DNA of 64,000 nucleotides from an uncultured Clostridia bacterium (GTDB taxonomy: Bacteria; Bacillota; Clostridia; Christensenellales; UBA1242), in NCBI GenBank assembly GCA_944372585.1, contig CALVZQ010000003.1, forward strand, positions 90,754 to 154,753, read 5' to 3'. Position numbers and translations under genes: made by a program. The notes beneath the pieces were generated by a model, which was given only the letters and a program-made list of their open reading frames with translations, was not told the DNA's origin and made no database searches. Positions within the stretch are counted from its first letter, which is position 1, and every line of letters starts with the position of its first letter. Shown here piece by piece: positions 38,151-47,970 of the stretch.

Positions 38151-38609
38151 TTAAAATTTAATAACAAGTTTGATTGATGCAATTTTATCTCGGTCTAAAT
38201 TGATTCTTTCCTTATCAGTTTTGATAGTGACAGATTTTTCATCAAAACTTTCCAAAACTCCGGTAAACAATTTCTTTCCATCAAATTTTGCAAACAAAGT
38301 CACATCAACTTCATTTCCAATGTTTCTGGATAAATCTCTGTCAGTTTTGAGTGGTCTGTCAAGACCTGGTGAGCTCACAACCAAAGTGTATGGTTTGTCA
38401 TCTGTTGGATTCATTTCATCAAGAATAGGGTCGATTTTTTTGTTTACAATTTCACAATCATCAACAGTGACTCCGCCGTCTTTGTCAATTGTGAAAATCA
38501 AAGACATTCCCCCATTTTCTTTTTCGTAACTCACTTCAACAAGTTCATAACCCATTTCTTCAATAACAGGTCTGAGCTTCTCTTCGCAAATTTGTTTAAC
38601 TTTTGCCAT
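38151..38609 (-). CDS. rimP: Ribosome maturation factor RimP
   Basis: The 152-aa protein begins with the RimP N-terminal fold (GYELVEVSYEKENGGMSLIFTID) and contains YTLVVSSPGLDRPL, the family signature, with an Sm-like C-terminal domain. It promotes 30S maturation. It is the first gene of the rimP-nusA-rnpM-ylxQ-infB-rbfA-nrnA-truB unit. Ribosome binding site TGGAGG. Confidence 0.95.
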   Translation of the reverse strand: MAKVKQICEEKLRPVIEEMGYELVEVSYEKENGGMSLIFTIDKDGGVTVDDCEIVNKKIDPILDEMNPTDDKPYTLVVSSPGLDRPLKTDRDLSRNIGNEVDVTLFAKFDGKKLFTGVLESFDEKSVTIKTDKERINLDRDKIASIKLVIKF

Positions 38610-38778: not shown

Positions 38779-40311
38779 TTAAACTTCATTAAGTTTCAAA
38801 AGAACTTGCGCAGTTGCAAAAGCATCATTCCAAGCCCTGTGTGCGCCTTCCAAAGTAAGTCCCAAAGCCTTAACAACTGTTCCAAGATTAAACCTTGAAA
38901 TTTTAAGCCTTGCAACTCTTGCTTCATTCATTGTGTCGATGAGTTCGTTGTCAAAGACAAGTCCAACATTCTCGCCTTCTCTGCGAATGAATTTGATGTC
39001 AAAGCCAATTATGTTGTGTCCACAAAGCACACAACCCTTTGAAAATTCATAAAAATCTTTAATCACCAAATCAACCGGTGGAGCATCTTCCAACATTTCA
39101 TCAGTTATCCCCGTCAAGTTGACAACCTCATATGAAAGTTTTTTTGTTGGTTTGACAAAAGTGGAAAATTTTTCAATGATGTTTCCATTCTCAATCTTAA
39201 CCGCACCAAGTTCAATGATTTGGTCAGTTGCTGGATCAAGTCCTGTGGTTTCAATGTCAAAAACAACAATCGTTCTGCCAATAATCTTTTTGTTGTATTT
39301 GTCCACATGTTCAAACATTGTATCCTGTTCCATTGCAGTAAGTTTTTCAATTTGAACAACTGGTCCCTCATGCTTGTATTCTTCCTTTATCGTTTCTTCT
39401 TTCTTTTGGACTTCAGTTGCCAGTGCAAGTTTGTCAATATAAAGACAAAGTTTGTTCATTTGATTGAATTTGACATCTCCATGAACCAAGACATACATAA
39501 ACTCTTCAAGTGCGTCCATGTCTTTTTCGTTTTTCCTTGGACAAAAATAAATGCAATCCATTCTTCCTTTGCCATCAGCAATTTGGAAATTGTAATATGC
39601 CTTTGGTTCGCCAGCATGTTTGCCAGTTTTTCTGATAAATTCTTTTCGCTCAATTTTTTTGATGTAGCCAGCAACAATCACTGAATTTTTTGGTGAAGTG
39701 ATAAATGAAAGATATTCTGGTTTTGGAGTGGTTCCACTTCCAATCACATCTTTGATGATTTCAACATTATATCTCTGTGCCACTCTGTATCTTGTTTTCA
39801 TTTCGACATTTTCAATGTCAACTTCATCAATAAGGTTTGGATTTTCAATCAGGTTGATAACAAACTCCACCAAAAAATTATCCTTCAAAAATTTTGCAAG
39901 TTCTTGAGTTATCTTATGTTCGCCGAAAAACTCAACCATTCTTGAACTCAATTCGATGTCAATGAGAACATCAATCTCTGTGATTCTGATTGACACATTG
40001 TCATCATTCACATAATTTATGATAAGTTTATATTTGCTCTCAAAATAGTTCTGAATAGCTTTTCTGATCAACCTTTCTTCAAGGAAGACTCTCATAAACT
40101 TGACTTTGAGTTGCATTTTTTCAAAATTCAAATTTTGGTTAAGCCAATTTGTTATGTCTCTCTTATCCAAGTCTGTAAGTTCTTTTGCTGTTGACGGGTA
40201 TAAAAAAGTTATCGTGCAAATTCCTTCACGCTTCTTCACAACAACATCTTTCAGTTGAAGATTTTCATATTTATCTCCAAATTCAGCATTAAACTCTTGT
40301 TGAAAATTCAT
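38779..40311 (-). CDS. PolC-derived protein: N-terminal and OB domains plus DEDDh exonuclease, no polymerase domain
   Basis: The 510-aa protein occupies the polC position between rseP and rimP. Residues ~1-200 resemble the PolC N-terminal region and ~205-300 the OB domain (VIVAGYIKKIERKEF). Residues ~345-510 are a DnaQ-type exonuclease with D352, E354 (VFDIETTGL), D438 (GHNIIGFD), H491 and D496 (HRAWNDAFA). PolC of Bacillota is about 1,400 aa; here the PHP and polymerase domains are absent and the frame stops cleanly. It may act as a separate proofreading or repair exonuclease. No Shine-Dalgarno sequence; leaderless start predicted. Confidence 0.82.
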   Translation of the reverse strand: MNFQQEFNAEFGDKYENLQLKDVVVKKREGICTITFLYPSTAKELTDLDKRDITNWLNQNLNFEKMQLKVKFMRVFLEERLIRKAIQNYFESKYKLIINYVNDDNVSIRITEIDVLIDIELSSRMVEFFGEHKITQELAKFLKDNFLVEFVINLIENPNLIDEVDIENVEMKTRYRVAQRYNVEIIKDVIGSGTTPKPEYLSFITSPKNSVIVAGYIKKIERKEFIRKTGKHAGEPKAYYNFQIADGKGRMDCIYFCPRKNEKDMDALEEFMYVLVHGDVKFNQMNKLCLYIDKLALATEVQKKEETIKEEYKHEGPVVQIEKLTAMEQDTMFEHVDKYNKKIIGRTIVVFDIETTGLDPATDQIIELGAVKIENGNIIEKFSTFVKPTKKLSYEVVNLTGITDEMLEDAPPVDLVIKDFYEFSKGCVLCGHNIIGFDIKFIRREGENVGLVFDNELIDTMNEARVARLKISRFNLGTVVKALGLTLEGAHRAWNDAFATAQVLLKLNEV

Positions 40312-40320
40312 AACATAATC

Positions 40321-40349
40321 ATTCTAGAATATAAACAAATTTTTGTCAA
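40321..40349 (-). promoter_or_regulatory. Promoter giving a near-leaderless mRNA for the PolC-derived gene
   Basis: On the minus strand TTGACA (40344-40349), 17 nt, TAGAAT (40321-40326). The expected start, near 40314, is about 3 nt before the ATG at 40311. Confidence 0.7.
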
Positions 40350-40372: not shown

Positions 40373-40398
40373 AAAAAAGCCTGACAAGGTCAGACTTT
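40373..40398 (-). terminator. Intrinsic terminator at the end of rseP
   Basis: On the minus strand AAGTCTGAC and GTCAGGCTT form a 9-bp stem with one wobble and a 3-nt loop, followed by TTTT. It overlaps the rseP stop codon. Confidence 0.75.
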
Positions 40399-41503
40399 AA
40401 AGAACAAAATGCAAGATATCCACAATTATGACAAATGCGAAAAGAATACATATACCGACAAAGTGTATCATGTTTTCCACCTTGCGATTGATTGGTTTTC
40501 CTCTTATCCATTCAATTAGTGTGAACAGAACATGAGAACCATCAAGCGCTGGAAACGGCAACAAGTTGAAAACAGCCAAGTTTGCCGCAATAAGCGGAAT
40601 GAAAATCAAAAGATATGACAAACTTTCAGAAGCAAAAGTTGCAATTGTTGAGATTGTTGCAATTGTTCCACCCATTTCAGTGATTGGAATTTGGAAAGTA
40701 ATGAGCATCCACAAACTCTTCAAAACAACCCAAGCAAATCCAAATGCCATTTCAAATGAACGACAAAATCCCGACCAAGCATCATAGACATAAGCAACTG
40801 TGCAAGGTTCTTCCCCTTCAGAAGATTCAAGACCAATAAGGCAGTTGATATAATCTTTCCCTGCAGAATCCTGAGCCATGACAGGATAAACCACAATTGT
40901 CAAATCGACCAAATCTCCATCACGAGATACCGTCATTGTGAAAGAATATTTCTTTCCATCAAGACCATTTTCTTTATAAAAATCCTGAGCCATAGCCTTT
41001 TGTTCATTGACAAGTGTGACAAAATTTTCTCCAAAGGCAAAGTCAATTGTTTTGCCATCAATTTTTCTTATGACATCACCCTCTTCATATGGATTGACAT
41101 AAGTTGTTTGATCAAATCTTGCAATTTGTGGAACGTCATAACCTATTGTGCACAGCAAAACCCAAGAGAATATGATTGCAACGATAAAATTCGCAGTCAC
41201 ACCTGCAAGAAAGACCAAAATTCTTTTCCAAGGTTTTTGATTGTTGAATGCAGTTGGAGATTCTGATTCTTTTTCGTCATCTTCTCCGTCAAAAGCACAA
41301 TATCCTCCAAGCGGAAAGATACGCAACGAAAATTTTTCTCCTGTCTTTTTGCTTATGTGGGTAAAAATTGGAAAACCAAATCCAATAGAAAATTCTGTTA
41401 TCTTAAACTTGAGAATTTTGCCAACCACATAGTGACCAAATTCATGGATAAGCACCATAAACAGCAAAATCACAATGGCAAGAACAATGTACCAAAAAAT
41501 CAT
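40397..41503 (-). CDS. rseP: Site-2 membrane metalloprotease RseP/RasP
   Basis: The 368-aa membrane protein has the zinc motif VLIHEFGHY in the first TM segment, a PDZ domain in the middle (~120-210), and LLPFPALDGSHV in the C-terminal TM, the equivalent of the NPDG motif with the third zinc ligand. It cleaves anti-sigma factors and signal-peptide remnants. Usually dxr precedes it and proS follows; both are absent here. Confidence 0.93.
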   Translation of the reverse strand: MIFWYIVLAIVILLFMVLIHEFGHYVVGKILKFKITEFSIGFGFPIFTHISKKTGEKFSLRIFPLGGYCAFDGEDDEKESESPTAFNNQKPWKRILVFLAGVTANFIVAIIFSWVLLCTIGYDVPQIARFDQTTYVNPYEEGDVIRKIDGKTIDFAFGENFVTLVNEQKAMAQDFYKENGLDGKKYSFTMTVSRDGDLVDLTIVVYPVMAQDSAGKDYINCLIGLESSEGEEPCTVAYVYDAWSGFCRSFEMAFGFAWVVLKSLWMLITFQIPITEMGGTIATISTIATFASESLSYLLIFIPLIAANLAVFNLLPFPALDGSHVLFTLIEWIRGKPINRKVENMIHFVGICILFAFVIIVDILHFVL

Positions 41504-44265: not shown

Positions 44266-44291
44266 AAAAAAACGACCATACAGTCGTTTTT
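44266..44291 (-). terminator. Intrinsic terminator of the 44290 gene
   Basis: On the minus strand AAAACGAC and GTCGTTTT form an 8-bp stem, loop TGTATG, then a T-run. It overlaps the last bases of the gene. Confidence 0.75.
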
Positions 44292-46224
44292 ATCTTTCAA
44301 AAGTGAATAATGTTGTGTCTTGCCCAAAATCTAGTTTGTTGACTTCTTCATTGAGTTTTCTTAATGGAGAAACCAAATCACCAACATTTTCAACAACCAA
44401 ACTTTCTCCAAACAGTTGTGGTTGTTTGTTTTGTCTTATATCAAAAGTTGTTCTGATTACTTCATCATAAGTTTTGACAATTTCAGATCTAAACAAATCA
44501 GTAATTGCCTCCTTGTCATCAAAACAAGAACTCAAATAGTCCATTGTTTTTTCAAAAAGTTGATCAACATTGGAATATTTTTTCCCAAGATTAAATCTTC
44601 TTTGTTCATAGGTACTTCTTAGGAGGTTGAGAGCATCTTCAATTTGTTCGCTCGTTTCTATTTCTGCAACAGTGACATCATGTATGTCTTTGCCTTCAAT
44701 CAAAAATCTTCTTTCGTGAAGCTGTTTAACATCATTTGCAAGAGACAGAACAAAATCTTTCTTTGATTTCTTTGACACACTTTCGTTTTTCAAAATTTTT
44801 GGCATATATCTTATGTTTTGGCCAACTGTTCTGATTGAATGTCTTAAGGACTTTTCGCCATTAAGTGTTCTTCTTTCTTTTGCCTTAATCAAATCTTCAA
44901 TCTTAGATTCAATTTCAAAATTTCCATCAAAGAAAATTTCCACAAACTTATGCAAACAATCTTTGTCAGACATACTCTCCACCTCTATATCTTGCATAAC
45001 AGCAGTGTTTGTCAATTTTTCTATGATTTTCTTGACGCTGAAATCAATATTGCTTGCAAACAGAGTTTTTCCAAACTCAAAAAACTTATCAAAATATTTT
45101 TCATCTGGAAATTCTGCGTCCAACCTTTCAATCTCCTTCAAAAGAATTGAAAATTGCGAAGAATTCATTCCAATCATATACGGGTTTGATGCAAGATATT
45201 TTGCAATATCGGTCTTTGATTTTTTGCTTATGATTTCAAGAGATCTAATGTTTTTGGTTGCATTTCTGACAATCTTGTCAAATGGAATTTGATTTAATAT
45301 GGCAAGATTGATCGGCTCTTCAAAATATGCCTTAAATTGATATGCATACGAGTTTGAAGTGAAATCCGAAACCACGTCAACCAAATAGTTTTCTTTTTTA
45401 AACATTGTTGAAGAATTGATTGTAAGCAATGATGAATTGTTCTTCAACCACTTTCTTACCATGATCGTCCTGTATTCCAAAAAAGATAAATTTGGATTTT
45501 TTGCGGAAATCATGGCATAACTTTTCTCCAATTTTGGCATCATTTTGCTTTGTAAATAATCAAAAGCATCTTGTATCCTGTCAGTTGATGTGACAAACAG
45601 TGAAGGATTAATTTTCAAAATGTCAACAACCTCATGTTTTCTGAACACTCTGTATGCTTTGTTTCTTTCATAAACCATCAACCCTTGAAGTTTGTCAAAA
45701 ATTTGTGAAAATTTATATGCATACCCCTTTGCAATTAATGATGAACACTTTTCAAAAATTTCAACAGCTTCTTGATCGGTCAAATTTAGCGTTTTGACCA
45801 GAGCACTATAGATATATCTGAAATCACGATTAACATCATATGCCTTTAAAGATGTTTCGGCATCTTTTTTCAGGTTCCCATCAGTCAAAACAGAACAATA
45901 CAAAATTTTGTATGTGTTTATTTTTCTTGAAGAGGTTTGTCTGAACAAATTATCAAGTCGTTCCCTCATTTCTGACAAACTTTCTTTATCTGAAAACTGA
46001 GAATAATCCAGTTTTGAAAGAAAAACGTGTCCAACTTTTCTTTTTAATTTTTCATCGACTTGATCAACAAATGCGTCAAGATACGGAAAAACCGTGTTTA
46101 ACATCACCAACAAGCGACTTTGGTCAATAGATTTTTTGAACTTTTCTTGAAGCATTTTTTCCGTTTCTTCTTTTGACAAAGCAAAATATTTGTAAACTTT
46201 TTGAAAAAAATCTTCTCTGCTCAT
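44290..46224 (-). CDS. Large unknown all-helical repeat protein
   Basis: The 644-aa protein has no signal peptide or TM and is predicted almost entirely helical. Recurrent segments such as KINPSLFVTSTDRIQDAF, SNPYMIGMNSSQFSILL and NNSSLLTINSSTMF resemble each other and, loosely, the mTERF helical repeat (NPxLL followed by a helix); this is inference. The last ~150 residues are charged. It is transcribed from its own consensus promoter and lies between tsf and frr, where pyrH is usual. The start was taken as ATG 46224 (AAGGAG 8 nt upstream); a TTG one codon earlier is the alternative. Confidence 0.65.
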   Translation of the reverse strand: MSREDFFQKVYKYFALSKEETEKMLQEKFKKSIDQSRLLVMLNTVFPYLDAFVDQVDEKLKRKVGHVFLSKLDYSQFSDKESLSEMRERLDNLFRQTSSRKINTYKILYCSVLTDGNLKKDAETSLKAYDVNRDFRYIYSALVKTLNLTDQEAVEIFEKCSSLIAKGYAYKFSQIFDKLQGLMVYERNKAYRVFRKHEVVDILKINPSLFVTSTDRIQDAFDYLQSKMMPKLEKSYAMISAKNPNLSFLEYRTIMVRKWLKNNSSLLTINSSTMFKKENYLVDVVSDFTSNSYAYQFKAYFEEPINLAILNQIPFDKIVRNATKNIRSLEIISKKSKTDIAKYLASNPYMIGMNSSQFSILLKEIERLDAEFPDEKYFDKFFEFGKTLFASNIDFSVKKIIEKLTNTAVMQDIEVESMSDKDCLHKFVEIFFDGNFEIESKIEDLIKAKERRTLNGEKSLRHSIRTVGQNIRYMPKILKNESVSKKSKKDFVLSLANDVKQLHERRFLIEGKDIHDVTVAEIETSEQIEDALNLLRSTYEQRRFNLGKKYSNVDQLFEKTMDYLSSCFDDKEAITDLFRSEIVKTYDEVIRTTFDIRQNKQPQLFGESLVVENVGDLVSPLRKLNEEVNKLDFGQDTTLFTFER

Positions 46225-46244
46225 CAAATCATCTCCTTGATGAC

Positions 46245-46346: not shown

Positions 46347-46377
46347 ACAAAAAAGACGCCAAATTTTTGACGTCTTT
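46347..46377 (-). terminator. Intrinsic terminator of rpsB-tsf
   Basis: On the minus strand AAAGACGTCAAA and TTTGGCGTCTTT form a 12-bp stem with one wobble, followed by TTTTTG. Confidence 0.8.
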
Positions 46378-46381
46378 GAAA

Positions 46382-47035
46382 TTATTTTCCTGCCATTTGT
46401 TTTGCAACTTCTTCAGCCAAGTTGTCGTTTCTCTTTTCCATTCCTTCGCCAAGTTCATAGCGTTTGAATCTACGAATAGAAATTTTTTCTCCAATCTTAA
46501 GGGTTGCTTCAGTCAAAAGGTCTTTGATTGTAAGGTCAGGATTTTTTACGAAATGTTGGTTCAAAAGGCAAACATCTTCATAAAATTTCTTAACTCTTCC
46601 TTCAACCATTTTTTCAATGATTGCTTCAGGTTTTCCCTCGTTCTTTGCTTGTGCTCTCAAAATTTCTTTTTCTTTTTCAAGTTCGGTTGGATCAACATCA
46701 GCTTCCGCAACATACTTAGGATTTGCAGCTGCAATATGCATTGCAATGTCTTTAACCAATGTTTGGAAATCGTCGCTCTTTGCAACGAAGTCTGTTTCAC
46801 AGTTAACTTCAACCAAAACACCAATTCTTCCGCCCATGTGAATGTAAGAAGCAACCAAACCTTCAGAAGCAATTCTTCCTTGTTTTTTGTCAACAGCCTT
46901 AAGTCCTCTTTCTCTCAAAAGAACAATAGCCTTTTCAAAATCTCCATTTGCATCTGTAAGTGCTTTTTTGCATTCCATCATGCCAACGCCTGTTTGTGCT
47001 CTAAGACGGGCAACATCTTGTGCAGTAAAACTCAT
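46382..47035 (-). CDS. tsf: Elongation factor Ts
   Basis: The 217-aa short-form EF-Ts begins [20 protein letters not shown] and has [17 protein letters not shown] (UBA-like domain), then the core [10 protein letters not shown]. It recycles EF-Tu-GDP. One C-terminal core subdomain is shorter than in E. coli (283 aa), as in several other lineages. The start at 47035 fits the family; an ATG two codons upstream is closer to GGAG. Confidence 0.95.
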
Positions 47036-47064
47036 AATCATAATCTCCTTTCAAAAATAAAATT

Positions 47065-47970
47065 TTATTCAGAAACTGTTTCTTCAGTTTTAGCTTCTGT
47101 TTCAGTTTTTTCTGATTTTTCTTCTGTCTTTTCTTTCTTTACAGGAGCTTTTTTCTTTGGTTTTCTTGCAGGTTTCTTAACTTCTTCTCCTGCTTCTGCA
47201 TCAGCAACACTTGGTTTTGCTTGTTCGAGCAAACTTTCAAGGTCAACTTCTTCTTCAGCATTTTCTTCGTCGTCCTTCTTCATTGAAACGCCTTCTCTTG
47301 CTTCGATAACAGCATCAGCGATTGCGCCAGCAATGAGTTTGACTGAACGAATTGCATCGTCGTTTCCTGGGATAACAACATCAACACCTGATGGATCGCA
47401 GTTTGTGTCAACCAAACTTACAACAGGAATGTTCAAAATGTTTGCTTCATGAACACAGATTTTTTCATTTGTTGGGTCAACAACAAACAAAACTCCAGGA
47501 AGTTCTCTCATATCCTTAATTCCGCCAAGGTTCTTTTCAAGTTTGTCTCTTTCTTGTTTGAGAAGAGTAACTTCTTTCTTTGGAAGAAGTTCAAATTCTC
47601 CAACTTTTTCCATTTGATTGAGTTTGTTGAGTCTCTCAATTCTGTTTCTGATTGTCTTGAAATTTGTTAAAGTTCCCCCAAGCCAACGAGTGTTGATGTA
47701 GAACATTCCACATCTTTCGGCTTCTTCTTTGATTGCTTCTTGAGCTTGTTTCTTTGTTCCAACAAAAAGAACGCTTTTTCCGCTTGCAACAACATCACGA
47801 ACAAAACTGTAAGCCTTGTCAACTTGTTCTGATGTCACTTCCAAATTGATGATATGAATGTCATTTCTAGCGGTAAAAATGTATTCTTTCATCTTTGGAT
47901 TCCACTTTCTGGATTGGTGACCAAAATGAACACCAGCTTCCAAAAGTTGTTTCATTGAAATAACTGACAT
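47065..47970 (-). CDS. rpsB: 30S ribosomal protein S2 (uS2) with charged C-terminal tail
   Basis: The 301-aa protein begins [18 protein letters not shown] and has [20 protein letters not shown] and [12 protein letters not shown], the S2 core. A tail of about 60 residues rich in Lys, Glu, Ala and Thr ([20 protein letters not shown]) extends past the usual end. The start has AAGGAGGG upstream. Followed by tsf. Confidence 0.97.

Follow-up and report, generated by a model that had tools for sequence, protein, structure and literature searches.

Introduction

Surveys of bacterial replicases describe sets consisting of DnaE1 only, of PolC with DnaE1 or of PolC with DnaE3 (PMC3919608, PMC12926913). 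In Bacillus subtilis, DnaE recruits PolC and the PolC exonuclease removes DnaE errors in trans. A polymerase-dead PolC made in the laboratory, which is exonuclease-proficient and has no polymerase activity, works with DnaE in trans; in vitro it stimulates synthesis by DnaE, a little more strongly when the clamp is present (PMC5627055). Here we describe a gene of an uncultured Clostridia bacterium of the order Christensenellales (assembly GCA_944372585.1, contig CALVZQ010000003.1), which lies on the minus strand at 38779..40311 of the 64,000-nucleotide stretch of DNA that was analysed (the window; contig positions 90,754 to 154,753). Its 510-aa product resembles a PolC from which the PHP and polymerase domains are gone. 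We call such polymerase-less PolC proteins stumps, the window protein being the copy of this genome. We propose, with a probability of roughly 0.68, that the stump is a PolC without PHP and polymerase that has been kept as a separate, clamp-tethered proofreader acting in trans for DnaE1.

The closest described system is the PolC-type DNA polymerase III (Pol III) of B. subtilis and Enterococcus faecium. The stump shares its locus and its order of N-terminal domain (NTD), OB fold and DEDDh exonuclease, and PolC is its best match by sequence, but it has neither the PHP domain (split by the exonuclease in PolC) nor the polymerase nor the C-terminal clamp motif. The laboratory polymerase-dead PolC, which works much as we propose for the stump, was engineered; the stump arose in nature, and both PHP and polymerase are wholly absent from it. 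Like epsilon (DnaQ) of Escherichia coli Pol III, the stump is a separate DEDDh exonuclease whose presumed partner, DnaE1, has no built-in DEDDh exonuclease. A clamp-binding motif is also common to the two, in the stump as a sequence motif alone, and the clamp binding of epsilon is itself weak (PMC12309361). Unlike epsilon, the stump appears to be of PolC origin, carries the additional NTD and OB domains, and has no C-terminal alpha-binding tail. Clostridial PolC without an integral exonuclease (PMC3919608) is another case of domain loss in Clostridia with DnaE1, but as a mirror image, with the polymerase kept. PolX-like proteins that lack the polymerase region (PMC12926913) are likewise retained relatives of a polymerase, but belong to family X and have a PHP nuclease. 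DinG/DnaQ-helicase fusions have a helicase domain that the stump lacks. No description of a polymerase-less PolC was found among the open-licence papers searched, which also included PMC12592400 and PMC3774996.

The stump is collinear with the N-terminal part of PolC

The frame starts with ATG. Residues 1–164 (39820..40311, minus strand, as are all features of this gene and its neighbours below) form an NTD of two alpha/beta subdomains, the second of which (~76–158) is KH-like; the AlphaFold2 model of this domain has a mean predicted local distance difference test score (pLDDT) of 92.9. An OB fold at residues ~207–300 (39412..39693) is indicated by hhalign, by strands in the predicted model and by a match to PF01336 at 211–295 (23.2 bits, under the Pfam cut-off of 27). 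The DEDDh 3'–5' exonuclease domain, residues 346–509 (38785..39276), was matched by Pfam RNase_T over residues 349–504 (1.7e-34), and its catalytic residues D352, E354, D438, H491 and D496 are all present. In the predicted model of the whole stump the domains are well folded (mean pLDDT 86.3, predicted template modelling score 0.43).

The PolC N-terminal Pfam families (NI/NII) gave no match to the window protein, and a profile–profile alignment was required. By hhalign, stump residues 1–203, 200–300 and 345–510 aligned with PolC positions 12–241, 241–337 and 432–596, with probabilities of 92.5, 98.2 and 100 (the E-values come from a one-entry comparison and are hence rough). The NTD, OB fold and exonuclease are thus all collinear with full PolC. 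The ~95 PolC positions between OB fold and exonuclease, the first part of PHP, correspond in stumps only to a linker with a median length of 47 residues (34–57). All PolC sequence C-terminal to the exonuclease is missing, the chain ending after that domain. The window protein had no Pfam or NCBIfam match to a PHP or polymerase (DNA_pol3_alpha) domain, nor to a helicase domain after the exonuclease, and the PHP motif LHxHT was found in 0/125 aligned stumps vs 53/57 PolCs. A preliminary description, made from the window sequence alone, had proposed PolC-like N-terminal and OB domains and an intact DEDDh exonuclease with PHP and polymerase gone; Pfam, NCBIfam and hhalign bear this out.

The preliminary description had also named closest matches among DinG/DnaQ fusions as grounds against a PolC origin. 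Instead, PolC models scored highest by sequence: the best NCBIfam models were NF001688 and TIGR01405 (176.8 and 163.2 bits; their cut-offs for full-length PolC, 873 and 1043.45, were not reached). The broad exonuclease subfamily TIGR00573 reached 112.1 bits, above its cut-off of 71.5, and the DnaQ equivalog TIGR01406 68 bits, below its cut-off of 222.7. The closest solved structure by sequence was the Thermotoga PolC exonuclease (2p1j, 3.2e-32), and Foldseek, run with the complete predicted model, placed the PolC structure 9qpc first (7.3e-20). In an exonuclease tree of 134 rows, 72 stumps with a complete active site (live stumps) lay beyond one branch with a modest Shimodaira–Hasegawa-like approximate likelihood ratio test (SH-aLRT) value of 80, grouped with PolC and away from the main body of DnaQ sequences. 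The tree was built without the stumps whose active site is lost, most rows of the own genus, three near-copies and some of the PolCs. Stand-alone DnaQs of families f20 and f32 also fell beside PolC, on long branches, and their placement was not relied upon. An exonuclease that came from a DnaQ or DinG gene, with a convergent likeness to PolC, would have to be reconciled with the ranking of the PolC models, with this tree, and with an NTD and OB fold that are collinear with PolC and lie in the polC locus; we consider its probability practically negligible. On these comparisons the stump is a derivative of PolC that sits in the polC locus.

The stump is a conserved feature of about half the families of the order

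A match to the window protein was found in 37/37 genomes searched from the own genus, with frames of 509–564 aa. The preliminary description had argued that the missing part was not due to a local frameshift, and a closed frame of this length in all 37 genomes, the own genome (97.8% complete) included, rules out a frameshift or assembly fault. TIGR01405 exceeded its PolC cut-off in 12/61 genomes (the own genome and 60 relatives), none of them of the own genus. Across 200 sampled genomes of the order, a PolC match over the cut-off was found in 71 and no match at 1e-20 in two; some genomes carried PolC fragments at contig ends. Families were filed by E-value, frame and sequences read, many genomes by E-value alone. 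Among the matches listed, 16 of the 33 sampled families have stumps (f1, f3, f6, f8, f9, f10, f14, f15, f17, f19, f20, f21, f25, f29, f30 and f32) and the remaining 17 full PolC. In a class sample of 245 genomes, the stump profile matched at 1e-20 in 195 and not in 50, and 11 of those listed belong to the own order. Outside the order, the frames among the matches listed were full-length or clipped PolC, with the sole exception of G368. Its 481-aa protein, which accompanies a full PolC, is of another kind and was excluded from the 125 aligned stumps, as were two proteins of different make-up, at L188 (378 aa) and in G075 (301 aa). A 450-aa protein of G052 also proved not to be a stump; the G052 stump lies at C31.

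Stump carriers have genomes of 0.7–1.3 Mb. In four of seven close stump pairs the ratio of nonsynonymous to synonymous substitution rates (dN/dS) was ~0.07–0.12, the other three being saturated, which points clearly to purifying selection. Most of PolC has been lost, as would be the case for a decaying remnant or for a split gene with its polymerase half elsewhere. Decay fits poorly with the low dN/dS and with the open frame and active site retained in 40/40 members of the own family; a split gene is at odds with the genome having DnaE as its only polymerase core and with the lack of a PolC over the cut-off in any own-genus genome. We regard both as very improbable.

A DnaE1-like enzyme is the remaining Pol III alpha subunit

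The preliminary description had reasoned that replication would need another polymerase. A search for DnaE-type genes or a separate PolC C-terminal gene found only DnaE: the single match of the own genome to the Pol III alpha family (DNA_pol3_alpha) is a DnaE of 1196 aa. The PHP metal site HHDHEHCDH of DnaE is intact in 28/28 rows from genomes with live stumps and in 6/7 rows from genomes with lost-site stumps, the seventh being cut short, and the internal clamp motif of DnaE in the stump clade is mostly GQxSxF. An intact PHP site and an internal clamp motif are DnaE1 signatures according to Timinskas and colleagues (PMC3919608, PMC12926913), and by these signatures the remaining DnaE is DnaE1-like. 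Pol I was present in 20/21 own-genus genomes. The stump was the sole RNase_T match in 33/37 own-genus genomes, so that any DEDDh proofreader of that family there is the stump.

A DnaE tree of 58 rows was split by one branch (SH-aLRT 100) into 35 stump-lineage rows and 23 others, the latter comprising 16 from full-PolC genomes, six from outside the order and G075. The tree was made by a quick method without bootstrap, after exclusion of 12 further own-genus rows; the stump itself was read for 34 of the 35 stump-lineage rows, none being found in the assembly of G166 (f17). Since a single, fully supported branch holds all 35 stump-lineage rows, a single origin is indicated, and PolC seems to have lost its polymerase half once, long ago, in the ancestry of the stump lineages. 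In the DnaE tree the branch with the stump origin is a long one. Among several changes specific to the clade, position 588 of DnaE (own numbering) is D in every stump-clade row with a letter there vs V in 91% of the remaining rows.

The linker carries a clamp-binding-like peptide

The linker at the place of PolC's PHP-N is variable and disordered, and contains the pentapeptide QDTMF (residues 329–333, 39313..39327), which stands out by its conservation and by low pLDDT. Position 329 is Q in 111/125 aligned stumps and position 333 is F in 96/123, the rest of the linker having mostly ~3 to 3.7 bits of entropy. The strict pattern Qxx[LMIF]F occurred in 91/125 linkers, while 1000 shuffles gave a mean of 2.5 and a maximum of 8, and in 40/40 members of the own family. 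After reduction to less than 95% identity it was present in 88/121 stumps, and at less than 70% in 77/107. In the predicted model, pLDDT falls below 50 at residues 302–311 and 327–335, between well-folded domains. QxxLF is a published clamp-binding consensus (PMC12309361), and the linker peptide probably binds the beta clamp.

The peptide is not placed as in PolC. In the 52 of 57 PolCs whose exonuclease was located, Qxx[LMIF]F was absent in every case from the 130 aa preceding the exonuclease and stood within the last 40 aa in 42; the stump has no C-terminal clamp motif of the PolC type, its motif sitting between OB fold and exonuclease. The peptide tracks the active site, its strict form being found in 91/105 stumps with all five catalytic residues vs 0/20 without; the 20 represent about three losses. 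Among the lost-site stumps, those of f20 have mostly QxxFV and those of f32 QxxLY in its stead. A 448-aa stump of G066 (f30, L260), whose profile match skips the OB region, has no clamp-like motif.

Proposed function and alternatives

We infer the clamp tether, the proofreading in trans and the placement at the replisome as follows. The linker peptide would hold the stump on the beta clamp beside DnaE1, the sole remaining Pol III alpha subunit. At a mismatch that stalls DnaE1, the exonuclease so tethered would trim the 3' end in trans, as that of PolC does for DnaE in B. subtilis, and the NTD and OB fold may help to position the stump at the replisome by contacts with the clamp loader or DnaE. 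The stump would thus do the job of epsilon from a separate, PolC-derived origin. Its form is that expected if only the service of PolC to DnaE in trans had been kept, and for this reason the proofreader reading is favoured. The preliminary description had left the choice between a split-off proofreader and a repair exonuclease; its view of the protein as a PolC remnant is supported, and of its two functions proofreading is the one we prefer.

Several observations weigh against this reading. The PHP domain of DnaE, its site intact, may be able to proofread alone. Nothing in the stump corresponds to the C-terminal tail with which epsilon of E. coli holds alpha, a median of five residues following position 507. 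Among 46 representatives at less than 40% identity, 30 have the strict peptide, and 14/105 live stumps do not have it; in one genus of f6 (g6; L070, L307 and L309) the active site is live and a clamp-like motif wholly absent. Twenty stumps, in three groups, have lost the active site and retained the NTD, the OB fold and the locus, so that proofreading cannot be the protein's sole use. The association of exonuclease loss with a separate DnaQ-like protein was not significant on independent pairs (two pairs), the events being few. Neither form, full PolC or stump, was seen in five incomplete genomes whose families have full PolC (G100, G116, G134, G138 and G167; 70–88% complete), and the same seems to hold for G075 (f11, 96%).

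Stand-alone DnaQ-like proteins were found in 14/20 genomes with a lost exonuclease vs 8/69 others, at a threshold of 1e-14 that was picked after the data had been seen. Each of the three f6 g6 genomes also has one. At locus L258 of G075, the C-terminal part of the 301-aa protein is a DEDDh-type exonuclease, and G118, which was outside the RNase_T search, has a live stump plus two further exonuclease frames.

Retention of the NTD, OB fold and locus in stumps without an active site is what would be seen if the stump were mainly a non-catalytic replisome adaptor, connecting clamp loader, helicase, clamp or DNA through these domains and, in stumps that have it, through the clamp-like peptide, with the exonuclease secondary and droppable. 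We consider this unlikely. The active site is intact in all 40 members of the own family, and the exonuclease holds most of the invariant columns. The total absence of the strict peptide from the 20 lost-site stumps argues against a main role as a clamp adaptor, and a clamp-bound scaffold role for those stumps was dropped on the same count. As to the NTD, tau domain V, which the literature relates to the PolC NTD, was absent from the matches listed and KH-like domains appeared instead; KH matches of this strength may reflect merely a common arrangement.

The intact DnaE PHP site also bears on a second alternative, in which DnaE keeps its proofreading through PHP and the stump is a repair or stalled-fork exonuclease apart from it. 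Such a role would suit the assorted replication and repair proteins that use motifs of this kind on the clamp (PMC12309361), and the fold of the stump exonuclease is equally close to DinG and PolC. However, the stump is retained in genomes of only 0.7–1.3 Mb with a conserved promoter, it is the only RNase_T-family exonuclease found in most own-genus genomes, and the PolC exonuclease is known to proofread DnaE in trans. We therefore give repair a rather small chance.

The proofreader reading can be extended to a history of the order, to which we give about an even chance. In a single ancestor, common to roughly half of its families, all synthesis would have passed to DnaE1 and PolC would have become a clamp-tethered trans-proofreader with a clamp motif at the former PHP-N, a second origin of a proofreading subunit. 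Later, at least three groups would have lost exonuclease and strict motif together, leaving a non-catalytic NTD–OB protein with another replisome role, and DnaQ-like proteins possibly took over proofreading.

Implications

The order seems to present a natural passage from PolC with DnaE1 to DnaE1 only, in which the discarded polymerase was kept for its exonuclease; the stump would be the natural counterpart of the laboratory polymerase-dead PolC. Whether PolC or DnaE1 does bulk synthesis in Clostridia is a question raised in PMC3919608. As there is no PolC polymerase here, DnaE1 must do bulk synthesis in these bacteria, provided that their genomes are indeed as complete as they appear. For annotation, the stump is a warning, since its exonuclease scores best with PolC models though the protein has no polymerase. 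Ibezapolstat and other PolC inhibitors would likewise find no polymerase target in it; that gut Clostridia are spared has been attributed, for other families, to variant residues of PolC (PMC11963600).

Locus and promoter

The stump gene lies between rseP (upstream, 40397..41503) and rimP (downstream, 38151..38609), all on the same strand, and the coordinates of the frame and its neighbours agree with the 510-aa gene of the preliminary description. rseP is likewise the neighbour at relatives' stump loci. Of 127 loci filed as stump loci, both genes were visible at 94 and at least one at 122, the flanks being short; the 127 include two non-stumps among the five without a neighbour, and L188 and the G052 locus L076 are counted. 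At least one of the two genes was present at 20/20 lost-active-site loci and at 28/65 full-PolC loci, where the flanks of the rest end too early to judge. The gap between rseP and the stump gene contains a possible terminator (40379..40395), a seven-pair stem with one G–T pair, a 3-nt loop and then six T, which was read by eye and is not among the features that a scan listed. The preliminary description had placed a clean stop followed by the promoter of the next gene after the stump; the closed frame agrees with the former, but near rimP only weak 9-of-12 matches to a promoter were seen. Elsewhere in the window, a 645-aa frame near frr (44290–46227, minus strand) and frames of 270 and 361 aa (1058–1870 and 46367–47452, plus strand) had no Pfam match at 0.01.

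Upstream of the stump gene stands a near-leaderless promoter, as had been suggested, with the sequence TTGACA-N17-TAGAAT. The −35 site is at 40344..40349 and the −10 site at 40321..40326, ending 9 nt before the ATG. The exact TTGACA with a 17-nt spacer is conserved in all 37 own-genus genomes (0.5/37 on average in shuffled upstream sequences), in 35 of which the −10 site stops 6 nt short of the ATG, and a pattern search found no Shine–Dalgarno-like sequence before the own-genus stump starts. The 11 further stump loci listed for the order had no TTGACA within 60 nt before the start. The arrangement TTGACA-N16–18-TANAAT-N4–9-ATG had 20 matches in the genome, two of them overlapping at the stump gene, vs 0 in the reversed control; leaderless transcripts therefore seem to be usual in this lineage and not peculiar to the stump gene.
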